DNA of 64,000 nucleotides. Origin: Apostichopus japonicus (lineage: Eukaryota > Echinodermata > Holothuroidea > Aspidochirotida > Stichopodidae). Made by a program: the position numbers and the translations under genes. The stretch spans positions 14,440,501-14,504,500 of the forward strand of contig NC_092566.1 of assembly GCF_037975245.1 (NCBI RefSeq). The letters run 5' to 3'. The notes below the pieces were generated by a model. It did no database searches and was not told the origin of the DNA. It worked only from the letters and a program-made list of their open reading frames with translations. Of the stretch, positions 3,116 to 64,000 are shown piece after piece (positions within the stretch are counted from its first letter, which is position 1; every line of letters starts with the position of its first letter).

Positions 3116-3415
3116 TCTTCTGACTGTGACTTATATTTAAGTGACACCTTTATGGCTCACCTTGATGAAAGTGAAATGTCTCCAGGAACCAACCAGAAGA
3201 GATTTACGCTGTCCACCAGAGAAAACAAAAGTGGAACAGTTTGACTAGCGATTGTTGCATGAACAACATCCTTTCTTAAAACAGGGCATTCATGGACTCT
3301 GATCTCTGAACATGGCATTGAACAGGGCTTTTTCTATTGCCATTCCGTAACAATGATTACATGTTCTAGCAGTATAACCCACCAATTCCATATTTTCGAT
3401 TCTTCTGCTTTTCAG

Positions 3416-28096: not shown

Positions 28097-28164
<68 letters not shown>

Positions 28165-29542
28165 GTCATTCCGTGTCAAACCACGGATGGCTGTTGCTGC
28201 ACCCTCTCCAAAAATTCCCAAATTTTTAGTATGATTGACACACTACAATATAAGCATATTCTGAAAATTCCAGTTGCATTGCTTCACAATTGGTACATTT
28301 ATAACACTTTGAAATCCGCAATTTGTCGCCACCATGACATTTTCTTGACTTTTTTCTATTACAGATGTATATAGAGTCTATTCCATAGAACAGGAATATA
28401 CAAAATTAGGCTACAAAAATATTGTCTTGTGGAGTTGGGTCATCTTAAAAGTGTCAAAATATTCGATTTTTGTACTTTTCACTAATTTTTTTTTATATTT
28501 ATTATGTCTAGTACAAAAAAAAAATAAAGATTACAATGCTTTCCTATAATATATTTGCAAGTTGTGCAACTCTTAAGTTGCTATTTCATGCTGCGATTCA
28601 ACATGAGGTAGGGGTTTTGATGCCAATTTTTTACCAAAGTAACCACTTTAAATATAAGTATAAAGTTCTTACACCTAAACAAATTTCAGGGTTCTAGCTT
28701 ATCTCAATATTAATTTATGAAGTATTAAAGTTGCTCCGATATACAAAAGGGGTCGTCTTTGACAGCCAATAACTCAACACGCTTCATGTTGAAAAATTCT
28801 GATAATTTTTTCTGGAAGAGATAGTACCACCCTGTTTGTACAACAAATTTCAGGAGGGTGTTTTGCCTTATTTTGAATTGAAAAATCCTCAAAGTTTGGG
28901 ATTTTTACAAAAAAACGTTTTTGCCTGTTTTGATGTTCCACATGTTTTGAGCCTGGGTATTGTACTTCAAGGTCATTCAATTCAGTACTGTGCAGTTTTA
29001 AATTTCATATAAACAAATACTATTTGCCATGTACTTGTCTGTTTCTGGTTTAATTCATTTAATTAAAAGACTTAACTATATAAATGACTGTCAACCAGTA
29101 CATACATGTACAGTGTGTAACAGTACACGCATACATGTGCTGTGTGTACATGTACAGTGTGTATTAGTGTTAGGTGTAAACATAGTCTTCTGGCATTCAT
29201 TTTCCTTATCCAAATGGATCCCCACCAATACACACACTGTACATGTACACCCAATACAATGTATATACTGTACACACTGTACATGTATGTACTGCTGAAT
29301 GCACAACTTGCAAATATAATATAGGAAAGTATTGTAATCATTATTTTGTATTGTTTGTACTAGACATAATACTCTCTGAAAGAATCAAGTACACTGAAGC
29401 AATGGTTTAGGAACAATTCATCAACTGAAATTTTTAGAATATGGTTATGTTGTGGTGTTCCAACCATAAAATAAATTTGGGAATTTTTCAAAGATGTCGA
29501 ACTACAACATACTCCAAAATTTGGTGATTTGATATGGAATGA

Positions 29543-29637
<95 letters not shown>

Positions 29638-31504
29638 CAAAAAATAAAGACTAATAATAATATTGGTTAGATTTGCGTTTGCTTTAAGTCGTTAGCTTTA
29701 TATCTCTTTCAGATACAAAGGAATTGCAAAACAGTCCTATCTGAAGAAGTTTGTGTCGGATATGCAGCAGTATCACGGATATCTGTGGGGAGCGTGTTTC
29801 AGTCGCAGTTCTCATTTAGACATGTGTATGAAAGCAATCAGCGGCTATAACATCAAAGAAAACGTATTTGTGCTGGCTCATCCGAAACACTTTAAGTACT
29901 TTCAAGACTATTGGATTCGACGTGGAAAGAATAACTACCTTTCCACAGGTAAGGTTTCGCAAGAAGAACAGACTAAATAATTTTGAAAACTTAAAAACGT
30001 AACACTTGACTTTTGTATTAGCAAATCAGCAATTTAAGATTGACCTTTCTCAAAGTAGGAAAGCTTACAATTTTAATATTCTGTATGTTGAGACAGTGAT
30101 TGTTCTATTTTAATTTGCCAGACACCTACTTGATCCTTGATCAAATTTTAAGCGTCTCGGAGTTTAAGGTGGAATTGTAAATAGTAGCAGTATATATATG
30201 AAGTTAAAAATCATGTAAAAAGTCATTTAGGTGTGCAGACATAAAGCACCCATTATTTAATGTAATGATATTTAGGCGCATCACCTTAATTATAAATGAT
30301 TTGACAAGCATATAAAGTATTAAATGTGATTGTCCAAAGTGAACTTGTCATCATGTGTTTAGTGTGTGGCAATGATAAAGTTTAGCTATGGAGAACGTAC
30401 TTAATTGCCCATGTCATTAGACATATAACTTGCATAATATAATCTTGTTACTGTTATGTGCTATTTCAAAGTTTGTGAAAAGCCAACGTGTAAAATATAC
30501 CTTTGCATCAACAAGTTACGTGCGATGAGGAAGATTCCCTTAGTAACAAACGATAATAAACGATCTAGACCACCACTATTGTACTGTGGGGGGGGGGGGG
30601 GGCTTTGGTGTTAAAAAGTACAGGGGAGGGGTCTAAAGGGAGGAATGATCCTTACCCTTTAAGAAATTTGGGGGAAATGGAGTAAAGGCAAAAAGTGCTA
30701 TGTTCGGCAAAATATTTTTCGACTACTAAGGTTCTACATATTTGACATGTTGTGTATTTATGTACTTAACACTAGGAATTATTGTAATATTTTGTCTGCC
30801 AGTGTGGAGAATTTCTTCGGGGACGTGTATGTAGCTGCACCCGTCGTTACCCTTAATCTCGAATTGCACAGGATTTCCAGCGATTACACTTTCCCCAGAT
30901 ACCCCCATCCCAACTGGTACTTATCAAAAATGTGTAGAAACGTGCTAACTGTTTGTATTATTTACAGCCACTGGTTGCAGAACTCAACTAATAATCTGGT
31001 AGCCTTCTAACATCACAATACTATACCATTAGATCAATTACACGAAAAGGCAATGTAGGAATACATTGAAGAAATAGGCTATAGGCTAGTCTAAGGGCTC
31101 TTTCCATTCTTTGAAATGTAAATACATACTAGGTAACATGTAATCGTAGCTTATTCCATCTACACAGCTCAGACAGTCATATCACTGTCTCGACTAGTTT
31201 TGAAATTAAATCACAGTAGCAATTTAAACATCTTTCTTAATTAATCAAATTCATATTTTCCTTTTTCAAAGGTTTCTACTACACCAGTGATGCATTAAGT
31301 CGCTGTAATGAAACGCACCTTTATGGATTTTGGCCATTTCCAAGAGCATTTGACGATATTTCTTCTTACAATGTTTCGTATCATTACTTTGAAAAGCTCG
31401 AAAACGAATGGAAGGAACCCCATGCGATGAACATAGAGTTTTCAATTCTCGTGCAGCTTCATCTTCTTGGTGTTGTAAAGATTCACATTGGAAAATGTGA
31501 ATAA
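20126..31504 (+). CDS. Alpha-2,8-sialyltransferase-like gene, copy B (complete, 7 exons, about 376 residues)
   Basis: Exons: 20126-20328, 21296-21409, 23443-23590, 27356-27462, 27780-27869, 29713-29948 and 31272-31504. All introns are GT/AG and the phases join cleanly (2, 2, 0, 2, 2, 1). The start MGRHCRIERL is chosen over an upstream in-frame ATG at 20096 because copy C also begins MGR in the same context (ACATGGGACG). Residues about 10-27 form the single membrane anchor (GIILCFVCTVTVGWW). Exon 2 is a stem with N-glycosylation sites (NIS, NQT). Exon 4 carries sialyl motif L (RCSVVGNSGSLLHSNCGK), completed in exon 5. Exons 6-7 carry motif S (LSTG...LSRCNETHLYGFWPF), motif III (HYFE), motif VS (HAMNIE) and terminal GKCE. 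Length and motifs fit the ST8Sia branch of GT29: Golgi type II enzymes that use CMP-sialic acid. No disabling change is seen. Acceptor and linkage cannot be told. Confidence 0.93.
21456..21818. mobile_element. MITE, GGGTCATTCCG family, in intron 2 of copy B
   Basis: The 363-bp element starts GGGTCATTCCGTGTCAA and ends as the reverse complement of GGGTCATTCCGCCTCAA. It is flanked by ACTA on both sides (21452-21455 and 21819-21822), a possible 4-bp target duplication. It is non-coding. Two larger relatives lie at 28163-29544 and 40832-41303. Confidence 0.8.
21823..23442. other. Rest of intron 2 of copy B; no recognised element
   Basis: AT-rich sequence. A 97-codon plus-strand frame at 21828-22121 has no family motif and no counterpart in copy C, so it is not called as an exon. 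Confidence 0.5.
23591..26215. other. Left part of intron 3 of copy B
   Basis: No recognised element. The longest frame (23997-24455 minus, 152 codons) shows no motif and is treated as chance. A short KGETAKRSGGSSKTQPRAAE-like reading near 25210-25270 could be an old repeat but was not identified. Confidence 0.45.
26216..27179. mobile_element. Element with minisatellite-type terminal inverted repeats, intron 3 of copy B
   Basis: The left end (26216-26335) reads TCACTTTGCCCAACAACCAT and continues with repeats of GGTCATTTCGCCCAACCAGC. The right end (27029-27179) is the reverse complement: GGTTGGGCGAAATGACCAGGC repeats ending TTGGGCGAAGTGA. The outermost 40 bp of the two ends match almost perfectly when inverted. 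The 0.7-kb interior is itself a tandem array of a 168-bp unit. No coding capacity is seen. I would call it a non-autonomous, foldback-like DNA element; its superfamily is unknown and no clear target duplication was found. Confidence 0.7.
26572..27010 (+). repeat. 168-bp tandem repeat, about 2.6 copies, inside the element
   Basis: ATCAAACCTAACCCCTAACA starts at 26572, 26741 and (with one change) 26909. Each unit continues with TTCGGTTCGTATCCCGTAAC and TCCTTAATATTCCTTAATATTC blocks. Confidence 0.85.
28103..28162. repeat. (TA)n microsatellite left of the MITE
   Basis: About 60 bp of (TA)n ends directly at the left inverted repeat of the MITE at 28163. Confidence 0.9.
28163..29544. mobile_element. 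Large MITE, GGGTCATTCCG family, in intron 5 of copy B
   Basis: It starts GGGTCATTCCGTGTCAAA and ends GATTTGATATGGAATGACC, the inverted form. Long subterminal inverted arms continue inwards: the left arm after 28230 reads as an inverted version of the right arm before 29450. (TA)n on both sides suggests it entered a TA target. The interior carries a 200-bp hairpin (29097-29296) and no recognised protein. Confidence 0.75.
29097..29296. repeat. 200-bp inverted repeat (hairpin) nested in the MITE
   Basis: The left arm (29097-29170) holds AGTACATACATGTACAGTGT and TGTACATGTACAGTGTGTAT. The right arm (29226-29296) is the inverted form of the same blocks. The loop is about 55 bp. It looks like a foldback insertion that sits in only this MITE copy. 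Confidence 0.75.
29545..29632. repeat. (TA)n microsatellite right of the MITE
   Basis: About 88 bp of (TA)n starts right at the end of the MITE and ends about 80 bp before exon 6 of copy B. Confidence 0.9.
29949..31271. other. Intron 6 of copy B
   Basis: No recognised element, apart from a 16-bp G run near 30587-30602. Frames at 30726-31010 are without motifs. Confidence 0.5.
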
Positions 31505-31646: not shown

Positions 31647-33068
31647 TGTAAATAGCTCTATTTCTTCTACTTCTTCTCCCCCATCCTAGTGGTTAGGTAA
31701 TAGGTACGCCTATACTCTTCCACATCCTGTGCTCATATTCCCTTGTATAATTAGTAGTGAGCCAGTGGCAACAGTACTTTCTTTATTCTGCCAAAGTTGC
31801 TGGTTGCAGTAAACATCTTCTCTTCTTACTTTCTTTTCTTAGATAAGGGATGCTTTGTCTTACTTGTTTCAGTTATAGGATAGACATTTGTATGCAGATT
31901 AGTCTGTGTAATTAGCTCTGATTGGTTCTGAGTGTTACTCTTGGTATCTAGGGTGTGTATAGCCAATCAGAGGTGTTAAGAGGGTCACATGTTGTTACCC
32001 TGTGGTTTAGGTGTTTCCTCCAAGGTGTTTTAGGAGAGAGAGGCAGTTTAGTTGTCAGCCAGTCAACAGGGCATGTTTGTATATTAGCCACCCTTGACAT
32101 CATGTAGTCTGTACACTACAGTATACTTATATAAAAAATAGTTAGAGAAGTTGTCTATCTCGTGCTTAAAGAATACATATATATCCACATAAATATAACT
32201 TTACTGGAGGATTTAATTGTTAATTATTGATTTGCTGTACGTTTGTAAACATTATTCCATCGTTTATTTAATGGATTATAAGGAACTGAGAGCTGTGTTC
32301 TGCTAGTTGCCGTTTTGTATTTACATATCTTATACCTGGACTTCACCAACTCTTTCACCTATTTTGTACCTGGACTTCATACCTACTCTCCTTGGGAAGA
32401 ACATTTCTTTGAACAAACAGTATATATTATTTATTGGCATATATTCCTGGAACTCTCACCCATATCTATTTTCACTGGAGTATTCATGGAACTCTCACCC
32501 ATATATTATTTACTGGAGTATTACTGGAACTCTCACCCATATCTATTTACACTGGAGTATTACTGGAACTCTCACATCACTCACCGTCCTTTTCGTAATT
32601 TCCTGTTATCGGACATTCATCAATCCTTAAAAACGTTTCATTACCGTGCCTACCAGTCAACTACATTGCTGTGCCGTGCTGCTGGACTATACAGACCCGC
32701 CCGCCAGATAAGCTCTATCTCTTTTTTTTTTTATTAATGTGCACACGTATTAGTCTTGTGGCCACTTGACACCCCTAGTTGTTTATATCAATATCTCTAG
32801 TTTTCATTGTTGATACAAGTGTAATTGTGTAACAGTAAAGAGTACTTTACCAAGATACCTTATGTTGCATAGTTTCATGTGTGTGACCGAGCAAATATAA
32901 CTACTTTCTATGTATACCTAACAGCCAGTCTTATTCTTTTTTTTAGCCTGTTGTATTTGTAATACAGTGGTCAGCTGTCTTCACACATCGTGACCACTTG
33001 GGGGATTCCCAATAATCTTGTTGTACAGCTAGCTGCTGACAAGAACCACATATCCCGCAACTCTTACA
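31647..33068 (+). repeat. 5' LTR (1422 bp)
   Basis: It starts TGTAAATAGCTCTATTTCTT and ends CCCGCAACTCTTACA. Compared with the 3' LTR it holds about 976 extra bases (about 31753-32728), including a 38-bp minisatellite. The shared parts are nearly identical. Confidence 0.85.
32436..32577 (+). repeat. Minisatellite of about 38 bp in the 5' LTR
   Basis: Four copies of a unit with CTGGAACTCTCACCCATATC followed by TATTTACACTGGAGTATTA. It is absent from the 3' LTR. Confidence 0.8.
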
Positions 33069-33271
33069 TTGTTAGTACGAGTGGGGTATTCAATTATTGC
33101 TTCCCAAGTGGCAATTGTCATTACATAGTATTTATTTCAAACGTTGTTGTACTTGAATAAGACTGGTTGATAGGAGACTTATTTTAATAACATTTCAGTA
33201 TTTTGCTTAAATGGTTTCTTTAATACTTCTATATATTTTTGCTCACAAGTTGTTTAACATTAAGAATAATT

Positions 33272-34195
33272 ATGAATGATAACAACATTGATTCTGTGAC
33301 ACCTGACTGCTCGGGAAACCAGCCTCTCCCTGCAATTTATATCCCCATAAATCATCAAATGTCTACCTTTGTGGGTAAGCCAACTAGTAAGAACGACCCT
33401 AGCTGGGGGGGGGGGGGGGAATGGAAGTCTAGCATGAAAGCTGCATTCAGAGCATGGCGGACCCCCCAGGACCAACAGGTAGAGTTGGCCCTTCGGTATC
33501 TGGGTGGTGTAGCACGGAGGGAGGTGCTTGTTCTAGAGGATGACCAGCGACCAACCCTTCATGCAGTGCTTAGGCACTTGGAAAAGATTTATGGGACAAT
33601 ACACCCTTAACAACCCTGATGAGTCGATTCTACGCCAGAAACCAGCATAGGCACGAGAGTATCAGGCAGTACTCCCTCTGCCTGGAAGAACTTTTACAGC
33701 GAATTATAAAGTACCCATCATCCATACCTGACAAGGACAAAACCCTAAGGGATAGGTTCATTGAGGGAATTTCGGACAACTCCATCAAGATGGAGCTACG
33801 GAGAGAAGTCAGGAAGGATAGTGACATCAGTTTCAAAGATATAAAAGATGAGGCCCTTGAGCTGGAAGGCGCCACTAGGATGGACAGTGCTGAAGTCATC
33901 ACAGCTGAACATCATCAAGTAGGGATCCCCACTGCACCGGTCCAAAGTACAACGCCCAACAATGACCCAGCCTTCAAAGAATGGCAGAAGACAATGGAGG
34001 CAGCATTCTCCAATATGCAACAACAAATGCTGCACTTGCAGTCTATGGTTGCCATGGCAACACCTAGAAACCGACCAACCGGTGGAAGAACGGCTTCAGA
34101 CCAGTTTACAGACGATGGTCGACCTATCTGCAGAACCTGCAACATCCAGGCCATGTCGCCAGGAACTGTAGAAAGGCACGAAGGTCCCCACCACA
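33272..34195 (+). pseudogene. Retrotransposon gag remnant
   Basis: It opens at an ATG (MNDNNIDSVT). A central capsid-like part contains FYARNQHRHESIRQYS, and a zinc knuckle lies near 34130-34175 (CRTCN, then GHVARNC in the next frame; CX2CX4HX4C). A frameshift lies near 33608 and another inside the knuckle near 34145. A 16-bp G run near 33405 looks slippage-prone but the frame passes through it. Confidence 0.75.
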
Positions 34196-34196
34196 C

Positions 34197-34577
34197 TTGT
34201 CAGCAGATGCCACCCCTTTCCAACCCCAGACAACATCAATTCACCCTAACGAGGCAGAGCAATCCACAGTTGTGGGCCAAACTATGGAATGCTCTGCCTC
34301 GTTAGGCTCATCTATACCAATTAGGGACATCAAAGACAAGGTCGTTGGAGATCACATGGTAACCAGCTTTCTTAAAGAGGGCCACCCTATGCCATGTATC
34401 ATTGACACCGGCTCCCAAGTGACGACCATATCAGAAAAATACTTCCTAGAACACTTGGTCGACAGACATCATCCATCTGGCTCTCTCCATTGGCTCAGAC
34501 TTAAAGGTGCAAACCATTTACCTGTCCCATTTTCAGGATGTGTGGAAGTCATTTCCGTCAGTCATTTCCGATGTTGA
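34197..34577 (+). pseudogene. Retrotransposon aspartic protease region
   Basis: The frame contains IIDTGSQVTTIS, the DTG/S active site of retropepsins, near 34399-34434. In Ty3/Gypsy elements this enzyme cuts the Gag-Pol polyprotein. The frame is closed by a stop before the RT; the next frame (34642-35121) continues the linker. Confidence 0.8.
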
Positions 34578-34641
34578 AATTAATATCATAGTCCTCCTTG
34601 TTCCTGAAAATGCTGCCAGTGGCATTCCCTGACTATTAGGA

Positions 34642-36286
34642 ATGAATGCCATAAGGCTTTGCAAAGAGGTGCTCTTCAATAGTCAGGACATGAAGTTGAA
34701 TCCATCCAGAGATCATTGTACACAATCAGCAGAATTACTGCAATTTATACAGATGGCTGAGGAAGAAATGGAGAGTGAGGATCTGTCCAGAATTATAGGT
34801 AAAGTGTCAATACCCAGGGGCCAATCTGTATTATTGCCTGCCAGACATGAGATAATCATAGAGAGCTACTGCGATTTAGGGAAAGGGAGAACTTGTGGTC
34901 AGGGGATAATAGAAGCACTACCTGATGACCAAAACAACTTAGCAAAGGATATTTTAGTGGCCAAATCATTGTCTACAGTTACTAACAATAAAGTGCACAT
35001 TAGACTTCTTAACATCAGCACCAGTGACAGCCTGCTCAGGAAAGGTTCAGTTTTGGCACAATTACATGACGTGGAGGTATTACCTAATCAGACTCCAGAA
35101 GTAAACTTAAGTGCATATTGATCAACAAACAGTAGAAGTTGTTATCTCTGAGCAACATGCTACAGTGGTCAATGAAAGTGCTAACTCTCAAATACCTAGC
35201 CAGTTGCCAGTACCTGTTAATGTCAACACTGAAACTCTTTGTTCTGATGAGGTGGCTATACTTGCTAAATTTCTTAATGACCATAAGGAAGTTTTTGCTA
35301 AAGATGATGGTGACTACGGGTGTACAGATACTATCACACATCAAATTCCAACAGGTGACAGCCCACCAGTGAGGGAAAAATATAGAATGATTCCGCCCAA
35401 ACTTTACCAGGAAGTAAAAGATCAAATCAAACAGATGCTAGAAAAGGGGGTCATCCAAGAAAGCTACAGTCCATGGGCAGCTCCTACTGTGTTAGTAAGG
35501 AAGAAAGATGGAAAGATAAGGATTTGTGTGGATTATCGCAGACTGAATGCTCTTACTAGGAAGGATGCCTACCCTCTCCCCCGAATTGATGAGTCCTTAA
35601 ATGCGTTGGGTCATGCCAAATTATTTTCCACCCTAGACTTGGTGAGTGGCTACTGGCAGGTCGCCATGAATTCCGAAGATCAGCAGAAAACAGCCTTTAC
35701 AACACCTATGGGACTGTTTGAATTTCAAAGAATGCCCTTCGGTTTATGCAACGCTCCAGCGACCTTTCAGCGATTAATGGAGGCCTGTCTGGGAGACAGG
35801 AATTATGAGTCTGTACTTCTGTATTTAGATGACATCATCGTCTTCTCTGAAGATTTCCCATCACATCTTCAAAGACTAGGGAATGTCCTGGACAGACTAA
35901 GTAAGCACGGGTTGAAGGCTAAACCAAGTAAGTGCCACCTGTTGCAGAAGGAAGTACACTACCTTGGTCATGTCGTGTCGGCAGAGGGTATATCTACAGA
36001 ACCAGAAAAGTGTGCAGTCATCAAAGACTGGCCCACCCCCGCCTCTGTATCAGATGTGAGATGTTTTCTGGGTATGGCAGGTTTCTACAGGCGATTCATT
36101 AAAGATTTTCCAAAGATCGCAGGTCCATTGTACGAGCTCACATCTAAACCAAAGAACGGGCTACCCCTGAAGAAAGCCTTTGAATGGTCACCCAGATGTC
36201 AGGATGCTTTTGAGCACCTAAGACAGGAACTGTCCTCACCGCCGATTCTAGCCTATGCAGACTATTCGCTGCCTTTTAGACTGTAA
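34642..36286 (+). pseudogene. Retrotransposon linker and reverse transcriptase
   Basis: The linker frame 34642-35121 overlaps the RT frame 35111-36286. RT blocks seen are WAAPTVLVRKKDGKIRICVD, a motif A (STLDLVSGYWQVAM), a motif B (FQRMPFGLCNAPATFQ) and the catalytic YLDDIIVF near 35822-35845. This is a complete RT fold of Ty3/Gypsy type. A TAA at 36284-36286 separates it from RNase H. Otherwise this stretch is well kept. Confidence 0.9.
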
Positions 36287-37327
36287 ACTGACGCTAGTGC
36301 TACAGGATTGGGGGCAGTATTGACACAAGTTCAAGAAAACAAAGAACGAGTAATAGCTTACGCGAGTCGAAGTCTCCGAAAAACAAAACGGAATGACCAG
36401 AACTACAGTGCGTTCAAGTTAGAACTACTAGCAATCTCCTGGGCGGTAACTCAAAAGTTCAAGTCATACTTACTCGGCGCTGAATTTGTTATTTATACAG
36501 ACCATAAACCCCTACAGTTCCTAGCTACAGCAGACCTCGGAGCCATTGAACAGAGATGGGTAGCAAGACTTGCGAATTTCCACTGCAAGATTGCTTACAA
36601 GCCAGGCAGAGAAAATACCAACGCTGATGCACTGTCCCGACGAATGACTCAGGCTCAAGAAGCCCCTTGTAGTACACCAGACGATGAGATCATCTACAAC
36701 CTCCAGCAGCATACAGATTGTTTGCTTCCTTTGACAGAGCAGGAATTAACCAATCAGGAACCTCCACCAAGCATTAATGACGACTTTAGGAACAGACAAG
36801 ACCTAGATCCAGCAATAGCTGAAGTCAAGAGATATGTACATTCTGGGACACGCCCCACATACAATGGTGACTCGACAGAGGTGTCATTGTTACTCAAACA
36901 GTGGAGCAGCCTAAAGATACTTGATGGGTGTCTCTATAGAAAGATCCTGAGAAGTGGTCACCATGACCCAGTAAAGCAATTTGTGGTGCCGTCCAGTTTA
37001 AAGGTCAGCGTTTTCCAGGGTTTACATGACCAAGCAGGACATTTTGGAGCCACCAGAACACTGGCACTTATTCAAGAGCGCTTCTACTGGCCCAACATGA
37101 GGAGTGATGTCCAGAAGTATTGTGCAGAATGCGAACGTTGTAATTTAGCTAAACCACCGACATCAACAACAAGAGCCCCACTGGTTAATCTTAAGGTGTC
37201 AGCCCTCCTGGAACTTGTGGCTCTTGACTTGCTAAAGCTTGATCGTTCTACAGATGGTTTTGAAAATGTCCTAGTCATCACTGACTACTTCACCAAAATA
37301 GCAGTTGCAGTCGCCACCAGAAAGTAA
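36287..37327 (+). pseudogene. Retrotransposon RNase H and integrase N-terminal half
   Basis: RNase H starts with TDASATGLGAVLTQ just after the stop at 36284 and includes YTDHKPLQF and NTNADALSR. The integrase zinc finger follows (H...H in LHDQAGHFGATRT, C...C in CAECERC), then the start of the catalytic core (VALDLLKLD...VLVITDYFTK). The frame ends at TAA 37325-37327. Confidence 0.88.
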
Positions 37328-37949
37328 ACTGCAGTAACAACGGCAAGAGCCCTTTGGTAGCATTTCATCACGAAGTATGGTTGCCCAGCACGAATCCTGT
37401 CAGACCAAGGTGCTAACTTTGAATCCCGGTTAATTAAGGAACTTTGCCATATGTATAACATCCATAAGAACAGAACTACATCCTACCACGCAGCTGGAAA
37501 TGGCTTATGCGAACGGTTCAACCGTACCCTTATAAACATGGTGCGTACTTTGTCTGGTACCAGTAGTCAGGTACCAGTAGTAGCCCAGTGACCCCACTAC
37601 TTGGAATACCAATTCCACGGCAGATACCCGACGGTACCAGCAGCTGCGATGATGAGGACATGAGGACAGCGTAGACCACCATAGTGCTGATGAAGACACA
37701 GACGCTTCTGATGGGCAGGAACCAACACATCCTCCTGTGCTCACCACAGTACCCGATATTCCCACCCTAGAATCAGTTCAAGTAGATCCCACTTTGTATC
37801 TCAGACGGTCACGTAGAACCAAAGGTTTACCTCCCGAGGAGTCATGTGTCAATAATATAATAAGTAAAGATTTTTCCCCCATTGTAATTTCTATGCAATG
37901 GTTAGAAGATGGCTTGAGTAAGGCTAGAGCATCTAATTTCTTCAAATAA
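37328..37949 (+). pseudogene. Integrase core end and C-terminal tail, broken
   Basis: After the stop the core continues with ILSDQGANFES (second catalytic Asp) and AGNGLCERFNRTL (catalytic Glu region) up to about 37560. A rearranged stretch of about 170 bp follows. An open tail at 37737-37949 (LRRSRRTKGLPPE) resembles the C-terminal end of such integrases. Confidence 0.7.
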
Positions 37950-38250
37950 GGTGTGCTATTGTGTATTCATTTGTATTTTGTACCAAGACTTACCGGTCTT
38001 TGTGGTATGATCCTTGCCAGAGGATCCGATTGCTTTAAGAGATACTGTATTTTTTTCATGTACAAGCTAGAAGTTGTAAGACTGTTGTACTAGGAAGTTA
38101 GGAAACTGTGTTAGTTACAGCCTTATGGTCTCACCAGATTGGGTATATACTTCACAAGTATATTCTGTATGTTTCCTTCATTTTTTTTTTTTAAACTTTG
38201 TTTTGTGGTTATTGCTGCAAGAAGTTTTCATTGGCAGTGTAAGCCAATAT

Positions 38251-38264
38251 AAAGCGGGCAGGGA
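38251..38264 (+). other. Polypurine tract of the retrotransposon
   Basis: AAAGCGGGCAGGGA lies directly before the TGTAAATAG start of the 3' LTR, the place where plus-strand DNA synthesis is primed in LTR elements. Confidence 0.7.
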
Positions 38265-38711
38265 TGTAAATAGCTCTATTTCTTCTTCTTTCTCTCCCCC
38301 ATCCTAGTGGTTATGTAATAGGTACGCCTATACTCTTCCACATCCTGTCCTCATATTCCCTTGTATAATTTTTTTATTAATGTGCACACGTATTAGTCTT
38401 GTGGCCACTTGACACCCCTAGTTGTTTATATCAATATCTCTAGTTTTCATTGTTGATACAAGTGTAATTGTGTAACAGTAAAGAGTACTTTACCAAGATA
38501 CCTTATGTTGCATAGTTTCATGTGTGTGACCGAGCAAATATAACTTCTTTCTATGTATACCTAACAGCCAGTCTTATTCTTTTTTTTAGCCTGTTGTATT
38601 TGTAATACAGTGGTCAGCTGTCTTCACACATCGTGACCACTAGGGGGATTCCCAATAATCTTGTTGTACAGCTAGCTGCTGACAAGAACCCCATATCCCG
38701 CAACTCTTACA
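38265..38711 (+). repeat. 3' LTR (447 bp, internally shortened)
   Basis: It begins TGTAAATAGCTCTATTTCTT and ends CCCGCAACTCTTACA. It lacks the roughly 976-bp middle of the 5' LTR; the junction is in a T run (GTATAATTTTTTTATTAATG), suggesting deletion by slippage or microhomology. Confidence 0.85.
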
Positions 38712-41854: not shown

Positions 41855-44054
41855 ATGGGACGGAATTTTCGAATGAAAGGTATGAGATTTTATCTGACAC
41901 TATCTCTTATTTCGGTTGTAGTCATCGGTTGGTTGTCCGTCAAACTTTACGTACGACCTCGTGTAAGTCCAATTTATTCTGACGATATACACATCCTGAA
42001 CTTCATAGAAGAAAGCAACTTTCAACGCCAACATGCAGGCGAGGAAAGGTAAGAAAGAATCATAACGATGCAGTAGTTATTTCTGTTTTCTTTTCTTTTT
42101 CCTTATTCTTTGTCTATCTGCTTATATATATTTCCAAAGGGTCCCAAGGGAATTTGAAAAGAAATTGGCATGAAGGTTGTTTTTCTTTCTATAGTGAAGG
42201 TTGAAACGTACAGAAATGAAATAAAACAGAAAGATTAATCATATTGGTGTTCGTACAAACAAAAACATCTTTTCGTTTTCCATTACTGGTTGAAAGCCGT
42301 CTCTATCGCAATTACTACTGGAGTTTCGGTAAATAGTTTAGCCCTGTTTTAGTTTGATTATAAACACGGCTACTTGATTGAAGAGCACGGCCTTTGTTAC
42401 CATCAGTAACAAATCACTTTTTAAGGACACAACTGTAATTGGCAGGTGTAGTTGGCTCATACATATATATACATATATTCATCAACTGACAAGTTAGACA
42501 ATATGAAGGCAGTTGCGTGCGCAGGATCTGAAAGCCTTGTCGAGGGGGAGGGGATTCTAACTTTCCCCTACTGAGGTAGGTAACAGCATGAACCTTTAGG
42601 GTCCTATATATATATGTGTGTGGCCGAATGCAGATCAAGGATTTAAACAGGAGGGGCGTAGCTCTGTCGGGATGGTTGAAGCGGTCTCATACGAAGAAGC
42701 GTATGAGGTTCCTTTCCCAAAGTTAGACGTAACATGGTGGCATTCTGAAGCAAATGTAGACTATTAATTAAATTCATAATATACGTTTTTATACTCGTAT
42801 TTGCTAATAAATACACTAGAAGCTTTGTGTGAGGTTGAAGAAGAGGGTGTGCACAAGACTGAATGTTTTTCGGGCCGAAAAGGGCAATGGAGGTAGCGAC
42901 CATGGTCCTAGATGCCCAACGCCGCTCCTCTTGCTCTACGGTCTACCCTCTCTCTTGGCGCAAGCTACTGTGTGAAGATGGTTGGTAGTTACCAAAGTAA
43001 ACATTTTTAGCGATATCAAAAGAAAGGATCTTGCAACAATGATCTTCACAATCTATTATTTACACTACATTGATTTACATTAATGTTGATAACAAACACT
43101 GTCGTTGCATCCCTGTTTGTACGTGATAATGACACATATTTCGTACGCAATCTGCCTACAACATGTAACATATAATTATTTCTGTCAGAATTAAATGAAA
43201 TCTCAAAATGCTTTGTGCTTTATTTTAAATGTCTTTTCTTGCCCTCTTATCTAACGTCATGATCAGGGCAATTATATGATATTGAACAATCTTTTATTCA
43301 AACAATGTGTAAAGGGAATTTATTGGTCCAATCCTAAGATAAAGAAGATATTTGGCTTGATTTATGTTAATAATAATGTTTATTTTAACATCGTTTCAAG
43401 ATATATTTCATCACGTTATTCCAGCAAACACAACAACAGGAAAAACTGATCACTGTTTGGCTTATATATATTAAAATGTGTTAGAGTTTCTCAAAAGTGC
43501 AGTTTGACCTTTTTTATGGGTAAAAATTAAACGGCACAGTATTTATTAGCAAACCCTTACCTTTAAACCTAATTACAGACCTAGTTTATAGTCTAAACAT
43601 GCTCCAGAATGCAACATCATTGACGTGTGATTTTTCATTTTTGTTCTAGCGGTCAACCTATGCTACAACGACCCCTAATCCGGGCTCTCTCCTCTAGTAA
43701 AATATCTTAGGTTTGCCTCTGGTCTTATAGTCATAAGGGTTCATGCTCGTACCTAAATTAGTCAGGTGAAACTTTGAACCCTCTTCCGACACAATTGAGT
43801 TTTCTTGAAGTTTATAAGTAAGTCTAACCACCGATTTTCCTGAGTATATAATACATATATATTTATATATATATATATTAATAGAGAAAACCAGATAAAT
43901 AAGTTATCACTCATAATTGACAAATAAGGAGTAATGATTTAGAAAATACTCCTTATTTGTCAATTATGAGTCATATCTTATTTCCCTGGTTTTCTACATT
44001 AATATTTTCTTTATATATATCTATGAAATTTCTATATATATAAATTTCTATAAT

Positions 44055-54600: not shown

Positions 54601-56219
<1,619 letters not shown>

Positions 56220-57610
56220 AACATGTTACAGAAGTGGTTTGCCAAAAGATCTGAGTAACTGGACAGGACCAAAATATGTTAGAGGGCCTCATCCTCGGGA
56301 TAACAAAATGTACACACGGGTTGTCTTTTAGTTTAATTTTATGTAAATAAAAAAGAGTTGGTACCAATAGTTCTATGAATAAATATTAAATGGCTTTCGT
56401 ATCGCTAACAGCAAAAGGAAGCATGAACACATTCTTTCAGTTGCCATTGAAATTACCAGTTTGTTTCCACTTATAGAGACAACTCTGTAGAGCATACGTT
56501 TTGGTTTAAGAAGGACGTTATAAGTAACGTTAATAGGGGTGAGTTAATTATAAAAACGTATCAAACGATAAACCTTATCAGAACAGCTTTATTATGCATT
56601 ACATGGTTTCCACTCCCTGTGGATTGCCGCTAAAATTTCATAATTAAAAGTATAACGGGAATTTCAAACTTTGTAGTGAATGCAGTATAGGTAACGGTAT
56701 TACCATTAAAGAAATACTATATATAAGCTTTCGACATTAAAATATATCAGAAAATTATATCGTTATTACTTTTTATATATGAACTGTTCACATCATATTG
56801 ATGAGAATAATGATCTGGAGGCCGACCAAGTACAGGATACCTGATAACTAACAGGTGTTTGAAATGTCAACATCATATTTTGAGAATTTGAGCCCTTTGA
56901 AAAGAAATTTAACTCCATATCTTTTTAAGGGCTACGTTATAAAGTGTTTCCCTGCTTCCCAACCTCTCAACTAAATAAAGTTTTACCCATTTACATTTTA
57001 GACTTTTTGAAAAAATAACCCTATGTCGACCATATTAAGTCCTTTATTGCAATGTTGGTTCAATAACACCGATCTTTTAATTTTATGGGCTTAATTGACC
57101 AAATAAATTTGTAGAAAAGAGTATCTAACTATATAAAAAAGATTTTGGGGGTCAGGTAATAACGACAATTAATAGACTAGCTGAGAAACCTTATCGATCG
57201 GTGTCAGATTTTTGGGAAGATTGGAGATTCAAAACATTTTAATACGAGAAATTTTCGCTAAGTAATTTAACGTAAAAAAGTCTTCTTGATGATGCGTAAA
57301 TAATATTTCCTAGGTACGTATTAGGACCATCACTAATCCTTAAAAGAAAATTGCGAAAATAAGTGACAGGATTAGGGAGAAGAGGACCTCATGGCAAATC
57401 ATAAGACTTATCTAGATTAACTATCATACCTGAGACTTTTGAATACCTATTGAATACTGAAATAACTTCATTTATCGAGTTTTTGGAACCATCAGTAATC
57501 ATAACAGTATCATCAACGTAATCAATAATCTTTAAGGTTCGATCACTGATTGTAATACCTTGGATTAGTAGATGATCTATAGGCTGATTCATTCCCTGGT
57601 TCCTCATTAA
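56220..57610 (-). mobile_element. LINE ORF2 fragment, minus strand
   Basis: 57389-57607 minus encodes IIDYVDDTVMI (the F/Y-x-D-D active site) followed by a NRYSKVSGMIVNLDKS-like block, as in L1-type reverse transcriptases. Near 56340-56225 minus, a cysteine-bearing PCVHFVIPRMRPSNIFWSCP reading matches the zinc-knuckle-like tail of such ORF2 proteins. The stretch between is full of stops. Confidence 0.65.
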
Positions 57611-57982
57611 GATACTTTTAATTAACGTGACCTGTATATAACCTTAAGTTAAGTATCACTCGTAGTTACAGTAATTGATTTTACCGAAACAATTAAAACT
57701 GTACAGAATGGTTTAAAGGTAGGTGATTGAACGAGAATTATATTTGATATAAACATGAAACGACGCTATTTTTCCATTTATCTACCTGGGTACAGAAGTT
57801 AATTTCATAATTTTGCTGTTGCCATTCCGTAAAAGGAAAATTGGGAGCCTATCCCGGAACGAACATCTCAGGCTCATTTTTAAATTATTTGAAGAAGGGG
57901 AATTACCTCTCACAGACAAAAATGATTGGCTCTATTTTATTACGCACTACTGTGTGGTATACAGTAGTACCCAAAGGTTACA

Positions 57983-58537
57983 ATGGAATGTGAGGTAGAT
58001 AGTTTCGTTCAGTCACCTGTGGAGTCTCTAAAACCTTTAAAACGGTCTGAGCTTGTACAACTGTGAGAATACTTAACAATTAAAGTAAAATCAGCGGACC
58101 GTAAAGCTACTGTAAGGAGAGTGTTGATTGGAACTCTGATTGACAAACACAATTTTTGAGTAATTTCTTTAAGAAAGTGCTCAATCTCTTTGTCTTGCTC
58201 AGGTTAATGCCGACCAAGACATCAAATAAATCTATTTAAGTTGGAATTTCCAGAGAAAGAGAAATAGAGATGCAACTTGAGATAGGCCTAGAACGTGAAA
58301 TTTAATTCCGAAGAACTAGAATTGATGTGACAATCCTCCCCAAGATCGGCATTTGCCAAATTGAAGAGTTAGCCAATTTCCTATAGTGGCCTGCAGGTCA
58401 ATGGGCCCTGTTCCTGCAGAATTCATTGACTGAACAGACTCAAGAAATGTATGTTCCCTTGTCAATATAACAGCCTTCTATCTATGCTGTGGTAAAAGAA
58501 ACTATTCTTAGAGCATATCAGTTAGTTCCTGAAGCCT
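57983..58537 (+). pseudogene. Ty3/Gypsy gag remnant, left part, interrupted by a transposon
   Basis: After an ATG at 57983 the reading gives FVQSPVESLKPLKRSELVQL, then after stops a charged coiled-coil stretch, and before 58538 TVKETILRAY-type sequence (VVKETILRAYQLVPEAF). These blocks resemble the N-terminal and capsid parts of retroelement Gag. The frame stops at the TTAA where the Kolobok-like element begins and resumes at its other end. Confidence 0.65.
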
Positions 58538-58541
58538 TTAA

Positions 58542-58640
58542 AGAGGTCGGGACACGGTCATACGTCAATCATTGGAATGAAATATTTGGACAATTTGATA
58601 GACAAATTCTTTTGTTAAAAAACCGTTATTTTCGTGTAGA
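58542..58640 (+). repeat. Left terminal inverted repeat of the Kolobok-like element
   Basis: It pairs with 62943-63047. Best blocks: AGAGGTC, GTCAATCATTGRAATGAAAT, TTTGATAGACAAAT and AACCGTTATTTTCGTGTA. Confidence 0.85.
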
Positions 58641-58803
58641 AAATATCAAATGAAATAACAAACTATGACGCAATCTGAACCCGGAAGTGAGAAAAACATA
58701 TTTTGCATGAACGACGCTACGCTGACATCATTATTCACTGTGTGTTAACGCGTTTTCATCAACTTGAAATCAATTACATAACTAAGCACAAAATTGATCA
58801 GAA

Positions 58804-60747
58804 ATGTCTCAAAATTCCGACGAGAATTCAGAGGAAAAAGAATTGCGCCTGTCCTACTCTTCGTCGAGTTTTGATGAAAGCGAAAATAGCGATGATGAAG
58901 AAGAAGCATTTGGTTTGCAACCATACTAATTCGAGCCAGTGGCAGTTGCGAGAGGTGGTGCAGAAGGAGATTTGGGAGACAAAGCTCCGGCAGTTCCTGA
59001 CATTGATAGGCTCCAAATTGACGTTAATGAATGGTCAGTACATGATTTAATGTATTTTGTTTAAATGTTCCACATTTATATGTTTCTTATGAAAAAAACC
59101 TCTTATCGAGTCGTTCCGTTAATTTCGTGCAACTACTAGAGACTACAAGTACTACATCTAGTAATCCATTACCGTACAACTTACAAGTTCTGTTTGATGT
59201 AGCTTAGGGCATATTCAATGAAATTATCATAGGACAAAGCAGTATCATTTTGATAGGAAATAAACGGATAGGAAAATTAGTTCAGGTAAAATATAACAAG
59301 TAATTTGACAATGCAAAAATATTTAATCAAACACTAACAGTGGGTCTAGGCTAGGCTCATACTGGAATTTTTGCACTCAATATTTTCTACATCATCTATT
59401 TCAGTTGCGCCCACCATACCCAGCAGAAAATAGGAATACTGGATTAATTGTCTTTTTGAAAAATGACTTTCAGTTCTTTCCCAATCTAAGGCTTACATTT
59501 TGTATGGGATTGTGGTACAAACCAATAAACATATTACATAGTGTCAATTATTGTCTATACCTAACCAGTTATTCAAAACTTGTTGATGCAGTTAAAAATG
59601 GTCTTATATTTGGTGTCGTATGAACTACATGAAAGCCATTTTTTTCTATGACATTTGTTTTCGACTGTAATTTGCAGGTGCACCTGTGAAAATTGTACTG
59701 CAATGCCAACAGCAGTAGAATGCAAGTGTTGCAGGGAGATTGAAGAAGTGAAAAACAAAGTGGACAGCCTAGAGGATGATAGTGTGTGGTGCATAATCCA
59801 ACACCCAAGCTTTCAAAGTGTATGTCTGGACATTTATTTCATTGAAACAGCATATCATGACTACCGGCAACAATATGGAGAGCTGCAAGAAGAACATTCA
59901 CTCATGTAAGTATAAGGTAGTGTACCTACATAATTATAAAACCTTTAATTAAAGTTGGGTACTAAAAGATATGTGAAGACAATATTTTAGCAGGATTTAC
60001 AGAATGTAGAATTGCCAGATATGTCTGTAAATCAGATTGGAAATAATTTGTTTCATATTTATTTCAAATTTGTAATGTAATATGAAAAAAGGTGAATACT
60101 GAATACCATCAAACTATTAGGCCTATAAAGCCGGTGCTATTCCCTGGTTTCAATGACGCAAGTGATATAATGTTGTTTGTGCAAGGACAGAACACAGATG
60201 ACTCAGACAATGAAGTAAACTCATAGCCTCTTGCTTGGAAGACCGACTCATCAACTCAATACAGTACCTACCTGTACCTGGAACAGGGAATAGCATATGC
60301 ATACATGTAAGTGCAGAGAAAATGGGCCATTTCCCCACTCTTCAGTGTCTGCACCTTTGTCTGGGGAGTGTTTGAAAAACTCTACTAAGAAGTTAGAAAT
60401 AAATCATGTTAAGAAGTGAAACACTCCATTTTGAGTTTTTTTTCACAATGCATGTTTTGTTTTCAAATCTTATTTACAGATTTTGGTTCGTTGCCAATTG
60501 GAAACATTCAATTCAATGGGCTTGATTCAGTGTTTTGTAATAATGCATTTTCTTATATTTTATTATTTCCTTTTTTTTTTCTGACAGGCATTACAGATAT
60601 GTTGCTTACAGGCAACTAGTCAGGTGGTGTTGGAGGTATCTTGGCAAAAAACACAGGGTGACCATTCCTGCTTGTGCAGTTACAAAGATTAGGGAGTGCT
60701 TCCCTTCAGCTGGGTATGTGGGGTTCCAGTACCCAGAACTGGACTAA
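58804..60747 (+). pseudogene. P2X7 C-terminal (ballast) domain-like gene, 3 exons, one premature stop
   Basis: Exons: 58804-59033, 59678-59905 and 60588-60747, with GT/AG borders and matching phases. Exon 1 starts MSQNSDENSEEKE and is acidic; a TAA at 58927-58929 (after GLQPY) breaks it. Exon 2 holds the cysteine cluster WCTCENCTAMPTAVECKCC, then WCIIQHPSFQSVCL. Exon 3 holds HYRYVAYRQLVRWCWRYLG, then IPACAVTKIRECFPSAG and a YVGFQYPELD end. The order CxCxxC, ExxCC, HP-F--VCL, RY-AYR and P-C----IR--FP---G-Y-GF matches the zinc-binding cytoplasmic ballast domain of vertebrate P2X7 and its many invertebrate relatives, which lack the channel. No channel part is present here. Its function in the element is unknown; the reading is sound but the stop makes this copy likely dead. 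Confidence 0.8.
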
Positions 60748-61407
60748 TTACCGCTTGCCGACACAGGGACAAATATCGTCAGCATGAAGCATCGCTTAAA
60801 TGGCATTCAGATTTGCTGGCTTTAATTTTGCATTGTTCCCATGAAAGGAATATTCACATTATTTCATTTGTATAAAAATTGATTGGTGAAAACCCCATGT
60901 TTGTATATTATACAACAAACTATATAAAAAATGAATGAATTAAAAATAATGAAGAAAATAAATTATTTCTTTGTCATTTTTCTTATTTGATTGATAAAAG
61001 TCATACACATTAAACATCCATTATTTCAAACTTTGTTACATTTCTGGTGATGGTAATAGTCTCTTTCTAAAGCACTCATTCCAATCTTCAACAAAAGTTT
61101 TATGAAGTGACTTTCATAATACATCCCAAACAGCCATGCATTCATCCTGAGACTAGATGCTGAAAAACCTATATGCAGGTGTAGCTGGCCAAAAACACAG
61201 TGACCAGGCAAAACTACATTTTTAGGTTTTGGAAAATGACAAGTGGCACCTTCCCATGAGGGTAGGGTCGGTTAACTCTGAGATCGTGGGGACAACTTGA
61301 AAAGGCGGGACGCTCACACAAAAAATAAACATATTAAGGCAAAATAATTGGTTTACTATGCACATGAATCGTGCATTAAAAGCAATGAGGTCACTTAAAC
61401 AAGAGCT
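60748..61407. other. Middle of the Kolobok-like element, no recognised gene
   Basis: Holds AATAAA at about 60957 for the plus-strand gene and a 61-codon minus-strand frame (61026-61211, FGQLHLHIGFSASSLRMNAW) of unknown family that could be part of the transposase or tail of the THAP protein. Confidence 0.4.
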
Positions 61408-62010
61408 GTTACGTCTTGTAAGAAATCCACTGAATGTATAGGAAAATACGGTTCCTCTACTCTAACACTGTTGTTATTATAAGAAATTATGTTGATCTTG
61501 TGCACAACCATCTCAACTTATCCTTCCTCTGTTCTCCTCTTACTATGCAAACTTGGCTTATAGTATCTCCCCCTTAACTTTTTCCCCTACTATCATACCC
61601 TATTCATTCCATCCCATAATTCCTAAAATACATCCCATCATTATAAGAATACATCCCATATTGTAAGAAAACATCCCATATTTTAGTGTATGGAAACTCA
61701 CTGAAAACCAATCAAACACAAAGTTTGATCATTGAATATTCATAAACCGTTTTTAAAGTCAGGTTTTTAAAGAGAAAGGTCACACAGGGCCACCTGACCT
61801 CAAACTGTTGCCCTGTAGCAGTTAGCCATGAAAGTGAAAATTTTGGGAAATCCTCAATCTACCAATGTAATACTTAATCATAGTCAAATGAATAAAACAA
61901 AGTAAGAAAATGAAAGGAAAAGATCAAATGAATAAAAACAAAAATAGGAAAGTGATAAACATTAACAACAACAAATCATAAAATAGGCTTTGCTCTGGTT
62001 ACACAGGCAG
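61408..62010. repeat. Part of the Kolobok-like element repeated at 1-700
   Basis: 61411-61445 and 61776-62010 match 1-35 and 441-680 in direct orientation. It includes a stretch rich in ATCCCATA repeats (61613-61680). Confidence 0.6.
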
Positions 62011-62104
62011 TATCTTGCTTGTAAAGTATTGTGACCTCAGTTATCAAAATTTATATGCAACTGAATACTGAAATTTTACATTAAATAGAAAAGAAAAATG
62101 CATA

Positions 62105-62741
62105 TCAACAACCCTTCCCTATTGTTGACTGGTTTTCTTGAACCTGGCTTTCTGCCTCTGTAGAGCATCTTGCTTGGTTGGTTTGCTGATACCGACTTGA
62201 CTTGGCTGTAGGCATATGCCTAACGTCATGCTTAGGCCTAGTACTACTACTGCTAGGATCTTGGAGAGAAAATAACTGTAGCTTCGTATTTTTCGTGAAA
62301 TTGGCTCTTGCCGTAGGCTGTCGTGGTGAAATCGTGTATTTCTTAGGGGTGTCCGAACTTCGCAGTGTTCCGAACTTCGCAATACTGACTATAGTACTTG
62401 TACTTGTAGCGCTTACGGATGGCTCCACTAGATCGGTCGTTTGTTTCCGTTTGATTGTGGGGTACTTTCCGGGCAAGAGTACCCTTCCCCTACTCTCGCC
62501 AAGTCAAAATCGTACCTTTGATTCATGCGTTGAATCGAAACGTTCTTACTTCTTAGTGGTTCAAAACGGTCACTATAGAGCTATAGTCTGAACACGCAAA
62601 GTCAGACCGACTGTTGTGCACAAACTGAGTCCATTTTCTACGGATTTTAGAATCTTTCGGATATCTATGAAGGCTGATTCCTGCTCTTTTGGCCTTTCTG
62701 CAACCACCAACAACACACCGAACCGGCATTTTTGCTCGCAA
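62105..62741 (-). pseudogene. THAP-domain protein gene of the Kolobok-like element, frameshifted
   Basis: Read from 62729 on the minus strand: MPVRCVVGGCRKAKRAGISL, then HRYPKDSKIRRKWTQFV. This is the start of a THAP zinc finger (CX2-4C, then the W and F core). After RSDF the frame is lost; the next block in a shifted frame is YSDRFEP where C-S-x-H-F-x-P is expected, so the third Cys and the His of the C2CH set are replaced. A third frame resumes with KYPTIKRKQ (the AVPTI-like end of THAP domains) and runs as a Ser/Thr-rich tail to 62105. THAP fingers bind DNA and head several transposases. Clearly decayed. Confidence 0.75.
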
Positions 62742-62942
62742 AATAGGTATAACTTAACAAAATTCAGTTTCGTAAAGACTAGCACTTGTTTACCTCTGAA
62801 CGTATAGGCTTATCTACCGCGTCCCGACGCCGTGTACAGACAGTGCATGTCATACTAAACATCGTTCATGCAATGACGTCATTGAGTCTGAAGGTTAAAG
62901 TGCTTATTTTTCGAGCAACGGTGGGACGTTATTTTTTTCATT

Positions 62943-63047
62943 TGTACACGAAAATAACGGTTTTTAGCAAAAAAGTTATATATTTGTCTATCAAATGATC
63001 CAAATATTTCATTTCAATGATTGACATATACCCGTTTCATGACCTCT
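62943..63047 (-). repeat. Right terminal inverted repeat of the Kolobok-like element
   Basis: Inverted counterpart of 58542-58640; ends GACCTCT just before TTAA. Confidence 0.85.
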
Positions 63048-63051
63048 TTAA

Positions 63052-64000
63052 GCAAAATTTCATTCGTTAAGGCAAATAGTGCTTGTCGAAGAATTTCAAA
63101 AGAGTGCAACCCCCCCCCCCCCGCCCCCGAAATCAAACACATTTAGATTATTAAGCTTTAGATGAGCAAAAGGCTCCAACACTTGAAAACGTTGCTGTGT
63201 TTGCAGATGATTATTCTTTAACACATAAGAGGGTATTTAGTAAACTAAAGACATGAACTCCAAAATTTCAAGACAAAGCAAGTAAATATTACAATAGGGA
63301 CCATGAAAACCAGGAAAGATCTCACTACGAGTCCCAATGAAAGAAAACGTAAGGACGCATCTTCAAGCCTTAAGTGTGGCTATTGTAAGAAAGTGGGTCA
63401 TACTATGGCTGATTGTTGGAACCTCATGAAAGGGAAAAGAAAGTCCTAGACAAGGGAGTTCAACCACGCTAGCCCACGTGCGTCAACTGTCGAAGGGAAA
63501 TATTACTGACGAAAAGTCCAAACCTAAAGAGCAAAACACTGAGCAAGTGGGAGAAGAATTTGAGCCCTTCATTTAAAAGTGTATCACTTCTAGGTGACAA
63601 GGGTACACCACAACCCATTACAATTTCAAGGGGGAAAGGGAGCAAGCCTCTCAGTAGTTATGGAGAGTGCACTACCATTCTCTACCGGAAGCTGTACAGG
63701 TTCCTATATTTCAGTTGCGGGTTAAAGAATGTAAGCCCATTATGTTCCCTTTCACAAATTGTATTTAGAGCTTGAAACTGGGCCAGTTGAGATAGGTGTT
63801 AGGCCTAATCTCTCTGCTAAAGGCGTTACACTATTGTTAAGCAATGACCTAAGGGGATCAAAAGTATTCCAAGAATTAGACTTTTGTGAAAAGCCGAGTG
63901 AACAAAATGAAACAGAGCTCATGGTACAAGAAATTTCAGGTTTATTTCCAGCCTGTGCTATCACTCGAGCTATGACTGAAAGACTAGAGGAAAAACATCT
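63052..64000 (+). pseudogene. Ty3/Gypsy gag-pol remnant, right part (runs off the window)
   Basis: The Gag reading resumes directly after the TTAA (QNFIR), then continues past a C run (63110-63121) with DEQKAPTLENVAVFADDYSL and the zinc knuckle CGYCKKVGHTMADC at about 63376-63417. The protease region follows (GDKGTPQPITISRGKGS), where GKG replaces the catalytic DTG, and reaches the LLLSNDLRGSKVF-like stretch. Frameshifts are frequent. The part from about 63365 is closely similar to 2476-3110. Confidence 0.75.

Follow-up and report, generated by a model that had tools for sequence, protein, structure and literature searches.

A ballast-type KolX gene in a decayed, probable Kolobok element of Apostichopus japonicus

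The question raised by this locus is why a gene that resembles the C-terminal (ballast) domain of the P2X7 receptor lies inside a transposon, and whether it was captured there once or belongs to the transposon as a second gene. The element in question occupies positions 58542-63047 (4,506 bp), at the end of a 64,000-nucleotide stretch of Apostichopus japonicus DNA (NC_092566.1, positions 14,440,501 to 14,504,500 of the forward strand), which as a whole is called the window here. It very probably belongs to a Kolobok (Kol0-type) family as a decayed copy without DDE; two convergent genes, KolX and THAP, are regularly carried by this family. KolX is described as the ballast-fold protein of the Kol0 Kolobok elements (Kojima & Bao 2022, PMC9587614); here and below, statements on published work refer to the passages of the papers considered in this analysis. 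The element has exact ends at TTAA sites and contains both kinds of gene, its family recurs in the genome, and KolX genes elsewhere in the genome are paired head-on with DDE transposases. The features of the locus, with the basis on which each was assigned, are the following.

58538..58541, no strand: TTAA target site, left copy (exact sequence match)
58542..58642, plus strand: left terminal inverted repeat (TIR), starting AGAGGTC (arm alignment; at least 29 genome matches)
58804..59033, plus strand: KolX exon 1, with an acidic N-terminus, the PYxFEP motif and an in-frame TAA at 58927-58929 (frame reading)
59678..59905, plus strand: KolX exon 2, with six of the seven zinc-type cysteines (Pfam match, alignment)
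60588..60747, plus strand: KolX exon 3, from RYVAYRQLVRWCW to the C-terminus, with the seventh zinc-type cysteine and its own stop codon (Pfam match, alignment)
61769..62005, no strand: dispersed repeat, 84% identical to window 439-677, within the THAP-remnant side of the element (alignment)
62105..62753, minus strand: THAP remnant in three frames, start codon at about 62729, convergent with KolX (PF05485; pieces recur in copies)
62941..63047, minus strand: right TIR (arm alignment)
63048..63051, no strand: TTAA target site, right copy (exact sequence match)

The boundaries of the element follow from a single motif, as TTAAAGAGGTC is found without mismatch at 58538-58548 on the plus strand and again at 63041-63051 on the minus strand, which places TTAA at 58538-58541 and 63048-63051 and the element between them. 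The TIRs are made up of arms of 70 nt at 87% and 25 nt at 96% identity, and their full alignment of 108 aligned bases is 81.5% identical. Their local alignment score of 75.5 is far above chance: no more than 23 was reached by 500 dinucleotide shuffles, and no more than 26.5 by 985 random pairs from the window. The initial annotation of this DNA, made from the letters of the sequence, had claimed inverted repeats of about 100 bp with TTAA on both sides, and both are borne out. The termini AG ... CT agree with the 5'-RR ... YY-3' rule for Kolobok; 5'-RR termini and a DxxH signature in the DDE transposase are the rules given for this group (PMC9587614). An uninterrupted paralogue of the joined flanks, representing an empty site, was not found within the window, and the right flank matches only window 2465-3118, at 89%.

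The three exons of KolX are connected by GT-AG introns into one frame of 205 codons on the plus strand. With the internal stop read as X, the joined exons match the Pfam family P2RX7_C (PF20478) at 41.4 bits, above the cut-off of 23.5; this is the sole Pfam domain, no P2X channel domain being found in the joined exons, and the gene is therefore not that of a P2X7 receptor. The profile comparison confirms the three-exon gene with the P2X7 C-terminal cysteine pattern that had been annotated initially, as far as its exons and its domain are concerned, but the frame is interrupted by the TAA in exon 1. This TAA, at codon 42, is the only stop, with exons 2 and 3 fully open. The ballast domain has seven cysteines that surround its zinc ions (PMC9587614), and the seven positions aligned to these in the window KolX are all cysteine. 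In an alignment of 35 rows, consisting of the window KolX and 34 of its 84 database relatives, all seven are kept in 32 rows, the window row included. R156 is kept in 35 and R188 in 33 of the rows; their counterparts in rat P2X7 are R546 and R578 (residue names from PMC7016195), the pairing of KolX positions with these arginines and with the zinc cysteines having been made by alignment in this analysis. By the P2RX7_C match and the seven cysteines, the KolX of the element is predicted to belong to the ballast-fold proteins.

The second gene has fared worse. PF05485 is matched at 30.2 bits, above the cut-off, over profile positions 1-43 of 87, while the remainder lies in other frames; the THAP of the window family thus keeps the DNA-binding N-terminus alone. 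What had been annotated as a convergent THAP gene is indeed a THAP domain on the opposite strand, but it is just a remnant without a DDE domain, and a Kolobok-type DDE match for this minus-strand gene was not obtained.

The left TIR has at least 29 matches in the genome, and the 27 outside the window were fetched in 19 loci (L009-L027). Eight of these loci hold a TIR pair, which makes nine pairs with the window element. TTAA stands at both ends in all nine; the left terminus is AG throughout, and the right terminus is AG in seven, GG in L013 and GA in L016, all of them RR. THAP pieces are present in every pair and KolX exons in eight (missing in L017), and the two genes are convergent in all eight pairs that hold both. 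As L010 and L013 share their flanks, these are eight independent insertions, with KolX in seven. Among the loci with a single TIR, KolX lies beside the TIR in 7 of 11, including the duplicates L023 and L024 (97-98.5% identical). A genome search with PF05485 gave a match in seven of ten copies of the window family.

The state of the KolX frames in these copies bears on the possibility that the locus is a domesticated host gene surviving inside an old transposon, in the way that nanor is likely to be a domesticated KolX (PMC9587614). For this speaks the single stop in 205 codons of the window KolX, in spite of the lost transposase, together with the open exons 2 and 3. However, the stop falls inside the region of the loose PYxFEP motif which is kept in 32 of the 35 aligned rows, and it is common to three other copies: at this site, the 14 other copies with exon 1 read TAA in three (L010, L013, L026), CAA in ten and CAG in one. 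Translated in frame, most KolX exons of the remaining copies contain stops or have lost their frame, and in P0003, a gene model of A. japonicus, exon 1 is translated in a different frame. Domestication of the window gene is therefore very unlikely. The occurrence of the same TAA in separate insertions fits movement in trans after the loss of KolX, unless the C-to-T change recurred.

Evidence from outside the window family comes from a genome search with P2RX7_C, in which 150 of 471 candidates were scored; the 31 matches at E 8.3e-21 or better are referred to as strong. Sixteen P2RX7_C loci (L028-L043) are intact open frames of 161-213 aa. The frame beside three of them, L036-L038, holds TDAH, DVWH and ESF, and following the DxxH rule we interpret it as the core of a Kolobok DDE; Pfam gave for this frame a Mutator match alone, below the cut-off. 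Used as a query, it has 138 matches in the genome (131 of 230 candidates scored), several of them with open frames of about 550 aa. A DDE match lies within 8 kb of 27 of the 31 strong KolX matches, and in all 27 cases the two are convergent. For the 30 strong matches on contigs of known length, 26 are paired with DDE, whereas 1000 draws of random positions gave 0.14 on average and never more than 2. Seen from the transposases, 43 of 88 clusters have KolX within 8 kb. Three copies with KolX and DDE are 99.5-99.8% identical and have a transposase frame of 550 aa without stops, and a second such family starts with TTAA followed by AGGGGCGTGG (AGGGG...) in two copies with unrelated flanks.

The presence of KolX in eight of nine TIR pairs and the pairing of 27 of 31 strong matches with DDE mean that the ballast protein is encoded as a standard component of Kolobok and was not captured just once. 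This agrees with the initial annotation, which had proposed the gene as cargo or a second gene of a Kolobok lineage; its alternative of one capture at this place is refuted for the window family by the other TIR copies. The window copy by itself would look like transduced cargo, that is, a host gene picked up once by a transposon, and the same ends with THAP and no KolX in L017 would agree with this. Such an origin is extremely improbable given that KolX keeps its place and orientation in eight of nine TIR pairs, adjoins the TIR in 7 of the 11 loci with one TIR and, in other families, pairs with transposases across the genome. A piggyBac-type element, which would also use TTAA sites, is hardly credible with 5'-RR termini as given for Kolobok, seven of seven cysteines in the window KolX where the published piggyBac-side counterparts are without most of them, and a DDE partner of KolX in this genome whose D-V-W-H motif is the DxxH signature of Kolobok and its relatives.

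Several results weigh against the assignment to Kolobok or narrow its reach. A tblastn search with the L036 protein gave no DDE match, and hence no DDE transposase with DxxH, in the element or in any of L009-L027, and when the THAP pieces were used as protein queries, no relative was obtained at E 0.001. Besides L017, with its ends and THAP and no KolX, there are four loci with one end each (L009, L022, L025, L027) and no KolX within the 9-10 kb fetched. The 31 strong KolX matches are not 31 independent events, as blastn groups the 30 that were fetched into about six families, five of which are paired with DDE (L042 is not). Of all 150 scored P2RX7_C matches, just 44 are within 8 kb of a DDE match (all convergent), and none of the 61 weakest is. 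The sequence followed for the second KolX and DDE family, as far as C21:13388800, does not reach its right end. Among the 145 THAP matches listed (150 of 557 candidates scored), there is none within 10 kb of any of the 31 strong KolX matches, so THAP may not be general in KolX elements; when the 138 transposase matches are merged by hand to 91, 11 of these have a same-strand THAP less than 10 kb upstream.

Because of the missing DDE match, Kolobok membership of the window family rests on its ends, TTAA, THAP and KolX. The element would thus be filed under Kolobok solely as a DDE-less derivative, in the manner of the T2 miniature inverted-repeat transposable elements (T2-MITEs), which were assigned to their group by ends and TTAA (PMC6004289). 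One locus on C17, among the 11 with THAP upstream of the transposase, has all three genes in order, with KolX at 20707092 (+), DDE at 20709390 (-) and THAP at 20715157 (-), the matches being weak (DDE 28% with four TGA; KolX covering profile positions 144-192 only). The layout of the window family looks like a shortened form of this KolX-DDE-THAP layout.

Some other ballast loci are worth recording. The 61 weakest P2RX7_C matches are mainly one repeat type, present in dozens of copies, which covers the C-terminal quarter of the ballast profile and mostly has one TGA. L042 (C19:11523823, open frame 1324-1962) is a ballast gene that has no DDE match within 8 kb and no sister copy in the set of 30 loci compared; its frame opens after a pyrimidine tract and AG, resembling a last exon, and it is a candidate for a domesticated KolX. 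In L036 together with L058, a cysteine-rich frame without a Pfam match lies upstream of KolX (3460-3708, minus strand), perhaps an extra first exon.

For a decayed Kolobok element with KolX and THAP, the DDE transposase would most likely be supplied in trans by an autonomous relative, while the THAP protein would contact the terminal repeats and KolX would assist transposition as an accessory protein. Three observations argue that KolX serves the element: its unvarying head-on position, the conservation of its cysteines and arginines, and the fact that open KolX frames adjoin open transposases in copies that are 99.5% alike. As to its role, we tentatively predict, at somewhat less than an even chance, that KolX is a nuclear scaffold or a nucleotide-dependent cofactor of the transposase.

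The KolX genes fall into two classes that differ in their relation to P2X7. Class I comprises the 35 aligned rows, in which the loose PYxFEP motif is found in 32 and the second W of WCW in 33. Class II comprises L028-L041 and L045 of A. japonicus, with the whole ballast in one open frame, and its genes are mostly beside a transposase (exceptions: L030 and L041). Two P2X7 ballasts, from PDB chains which we take to be mammalian, reach 93 and 89 bits with the class II sequence that fits them best, but 57 and 60 bits with the best-scoring database relative, in a comparison that covered 11 A. japonicus loci, the window KolX and 83 database proteins. An unrooted tree of 29 sequences with the two P2X7 chains, leaving out L042, P0076, P0071, P0075, L032 and L040, splits class I (19) from class II with P2X7 (10) at 100/100, and P2X7 joins L029/L030 at 89/80. 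A class II without P2X7 is not rejected by the approximately unbiased test (p 0.441), so P2X7 may lie inside class II or beside it. On a wider tree that includes the long branches L042, P0076, P0071 and P0075, the split of P2X7 with class II has 76/84, and P0076, P0071 and P0075 stand apart from class I. Judged by these sequence comparisons, the KolX class of the window element is not the one nearest P2X7. A profile of the 35 KolX sequences matches P2X7 at 6.3e-14 (residues 472-594), and the window KolX alone has no PDB match at E 1. Class I has no relative in viral contigs or in bacterial or archaeal genomes and class II none in viral contigs, where an exact match to the 24-base TIR pattern is missing as well.

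The origin proposed for P2X7 is a fusion between a P2X4-like gene and KolX (PMC9587614), and its ballast sits in a single exon, exon 13 (PMC7016195). That this ballast derives from class II, with the ballast in one exon, and not from the PYxFEP class I of the window is a possibility for which we see the chances as evenly balanced. If it does, the ballast exon of P2X7 would be a KolX exon captured from an element inserted 3' of the P2X4-like gene, and in P0003 a fusion of this kind would be seen arising at present. The two KolX classes are not mentioned in the open-licence PMC literature searched, which includes PMC9587614 in part.

P0003, annotated in A. japonicus as a putative alpha-2,8-sialyltransferase, has KolX exons joined to sialyltransferase exons. 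Its first 53 residues are exon 1 of the element in a shifted frame, its exon 3 has 2 differences from that of the element in 42 residues, and the part encoding the sialyltransferase is 87-97.5% identical to window 3417-5175. It is probably a chimeric prediction, and represents either the insertion of the element in another assembly or another (sister) copy. The match of the right flank at 2465-3118 adjoins retroelement-like frames and does not settle where P0003 is located; for the same reason, this match was rejected as a third sialyltransferase unit.

The remainder of the window contains exons of two sialyltransferase (GT29) copies, at 3417-5175 and 27781-31501, the second of which matches P0003 at 54-71% only. 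A retroelement with reverse transcriptase, RNase H and an integrase zinc domain lies at 32726-38711 between direct repeats that are 99.1% identical, and is Gypsy-like by reading. The stretches 2465-3118 and 63349-64000 are 89% identical, the second running to the window edge and being overlapped by a zinc-knuckle-like frame at 63249-63449. A reverse transcriptase fragment at 57389-57643 (minus strand) remains below the Pfam cut-off. Further, there is a tandem array of roughly 62-bp units at 3949-4441 and a 172-bp imperfect palindrome (81%) at 43854-44025, and an Rfam scan of 55000-64000 gave no match at gathering scores.

Compared with Kol0 as described in PMC9587614, the element shares TTAA, 5'-RR ends and a seven-cysteine KolX, and elsewhere in A. 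japonicus DDE is convergent with KolX; by contrast, the element itself is without DDE, its KolX is broken and its host is an echinoderm. The hosts named for Kol0 in the relevant passage are vertebrates, annelids, cnidarians and sponges, with echinoderms unlisted there. XKol of Xenopus (PMC6004289) has TTAA, AG termini and THAP in common with the element, THAP being part of the transposase in XKol, but its transposases exceed 600 aa and KolX is not named there. The ballast of P2X7 (PDB 9e3m, 8tr5, 6u9v) has the cysteines and the arginines R546 and R578 in common with KolX; it is fused to an ion channel and encoded in one exon, whereas the window KolX, which belongs to class I, the class further from P2X7, has its ballast divided between exons 2 and 3, behind the acidic exon 1.

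The idea that the ballast belongs to Kolobok, together with the route to P2X7, has been in print since 2022 (PMC9587614) and is therefore not new. Rump 2020 (PMC7016195) describes the ballast domain across animals, with transposons nowhere mentioned, PMC9319628 has one mention each of Kolobok and P2X7, and no further paper linking the P2X7 ballast to Kolobok was found in the open-licence PMC literature. The whole-genome comparison in A. japonicus supports the published link between Kolobok and P2X7, in which capture of KolX is the proposed event. It tests independently, and on the whole genome of an echinoderm, what was proposed in 2022, namely that the ballast is a transposon protein. With 27 of the 31 strong ballast matches head-on to a transposase match, names like 'P2X purinoceptor 7-like' for such short genes are likely to be misleading. 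Given two KolX classes and the exon layout of each, one can test which class, and which exon, became the tail of vertebrate P2X7.

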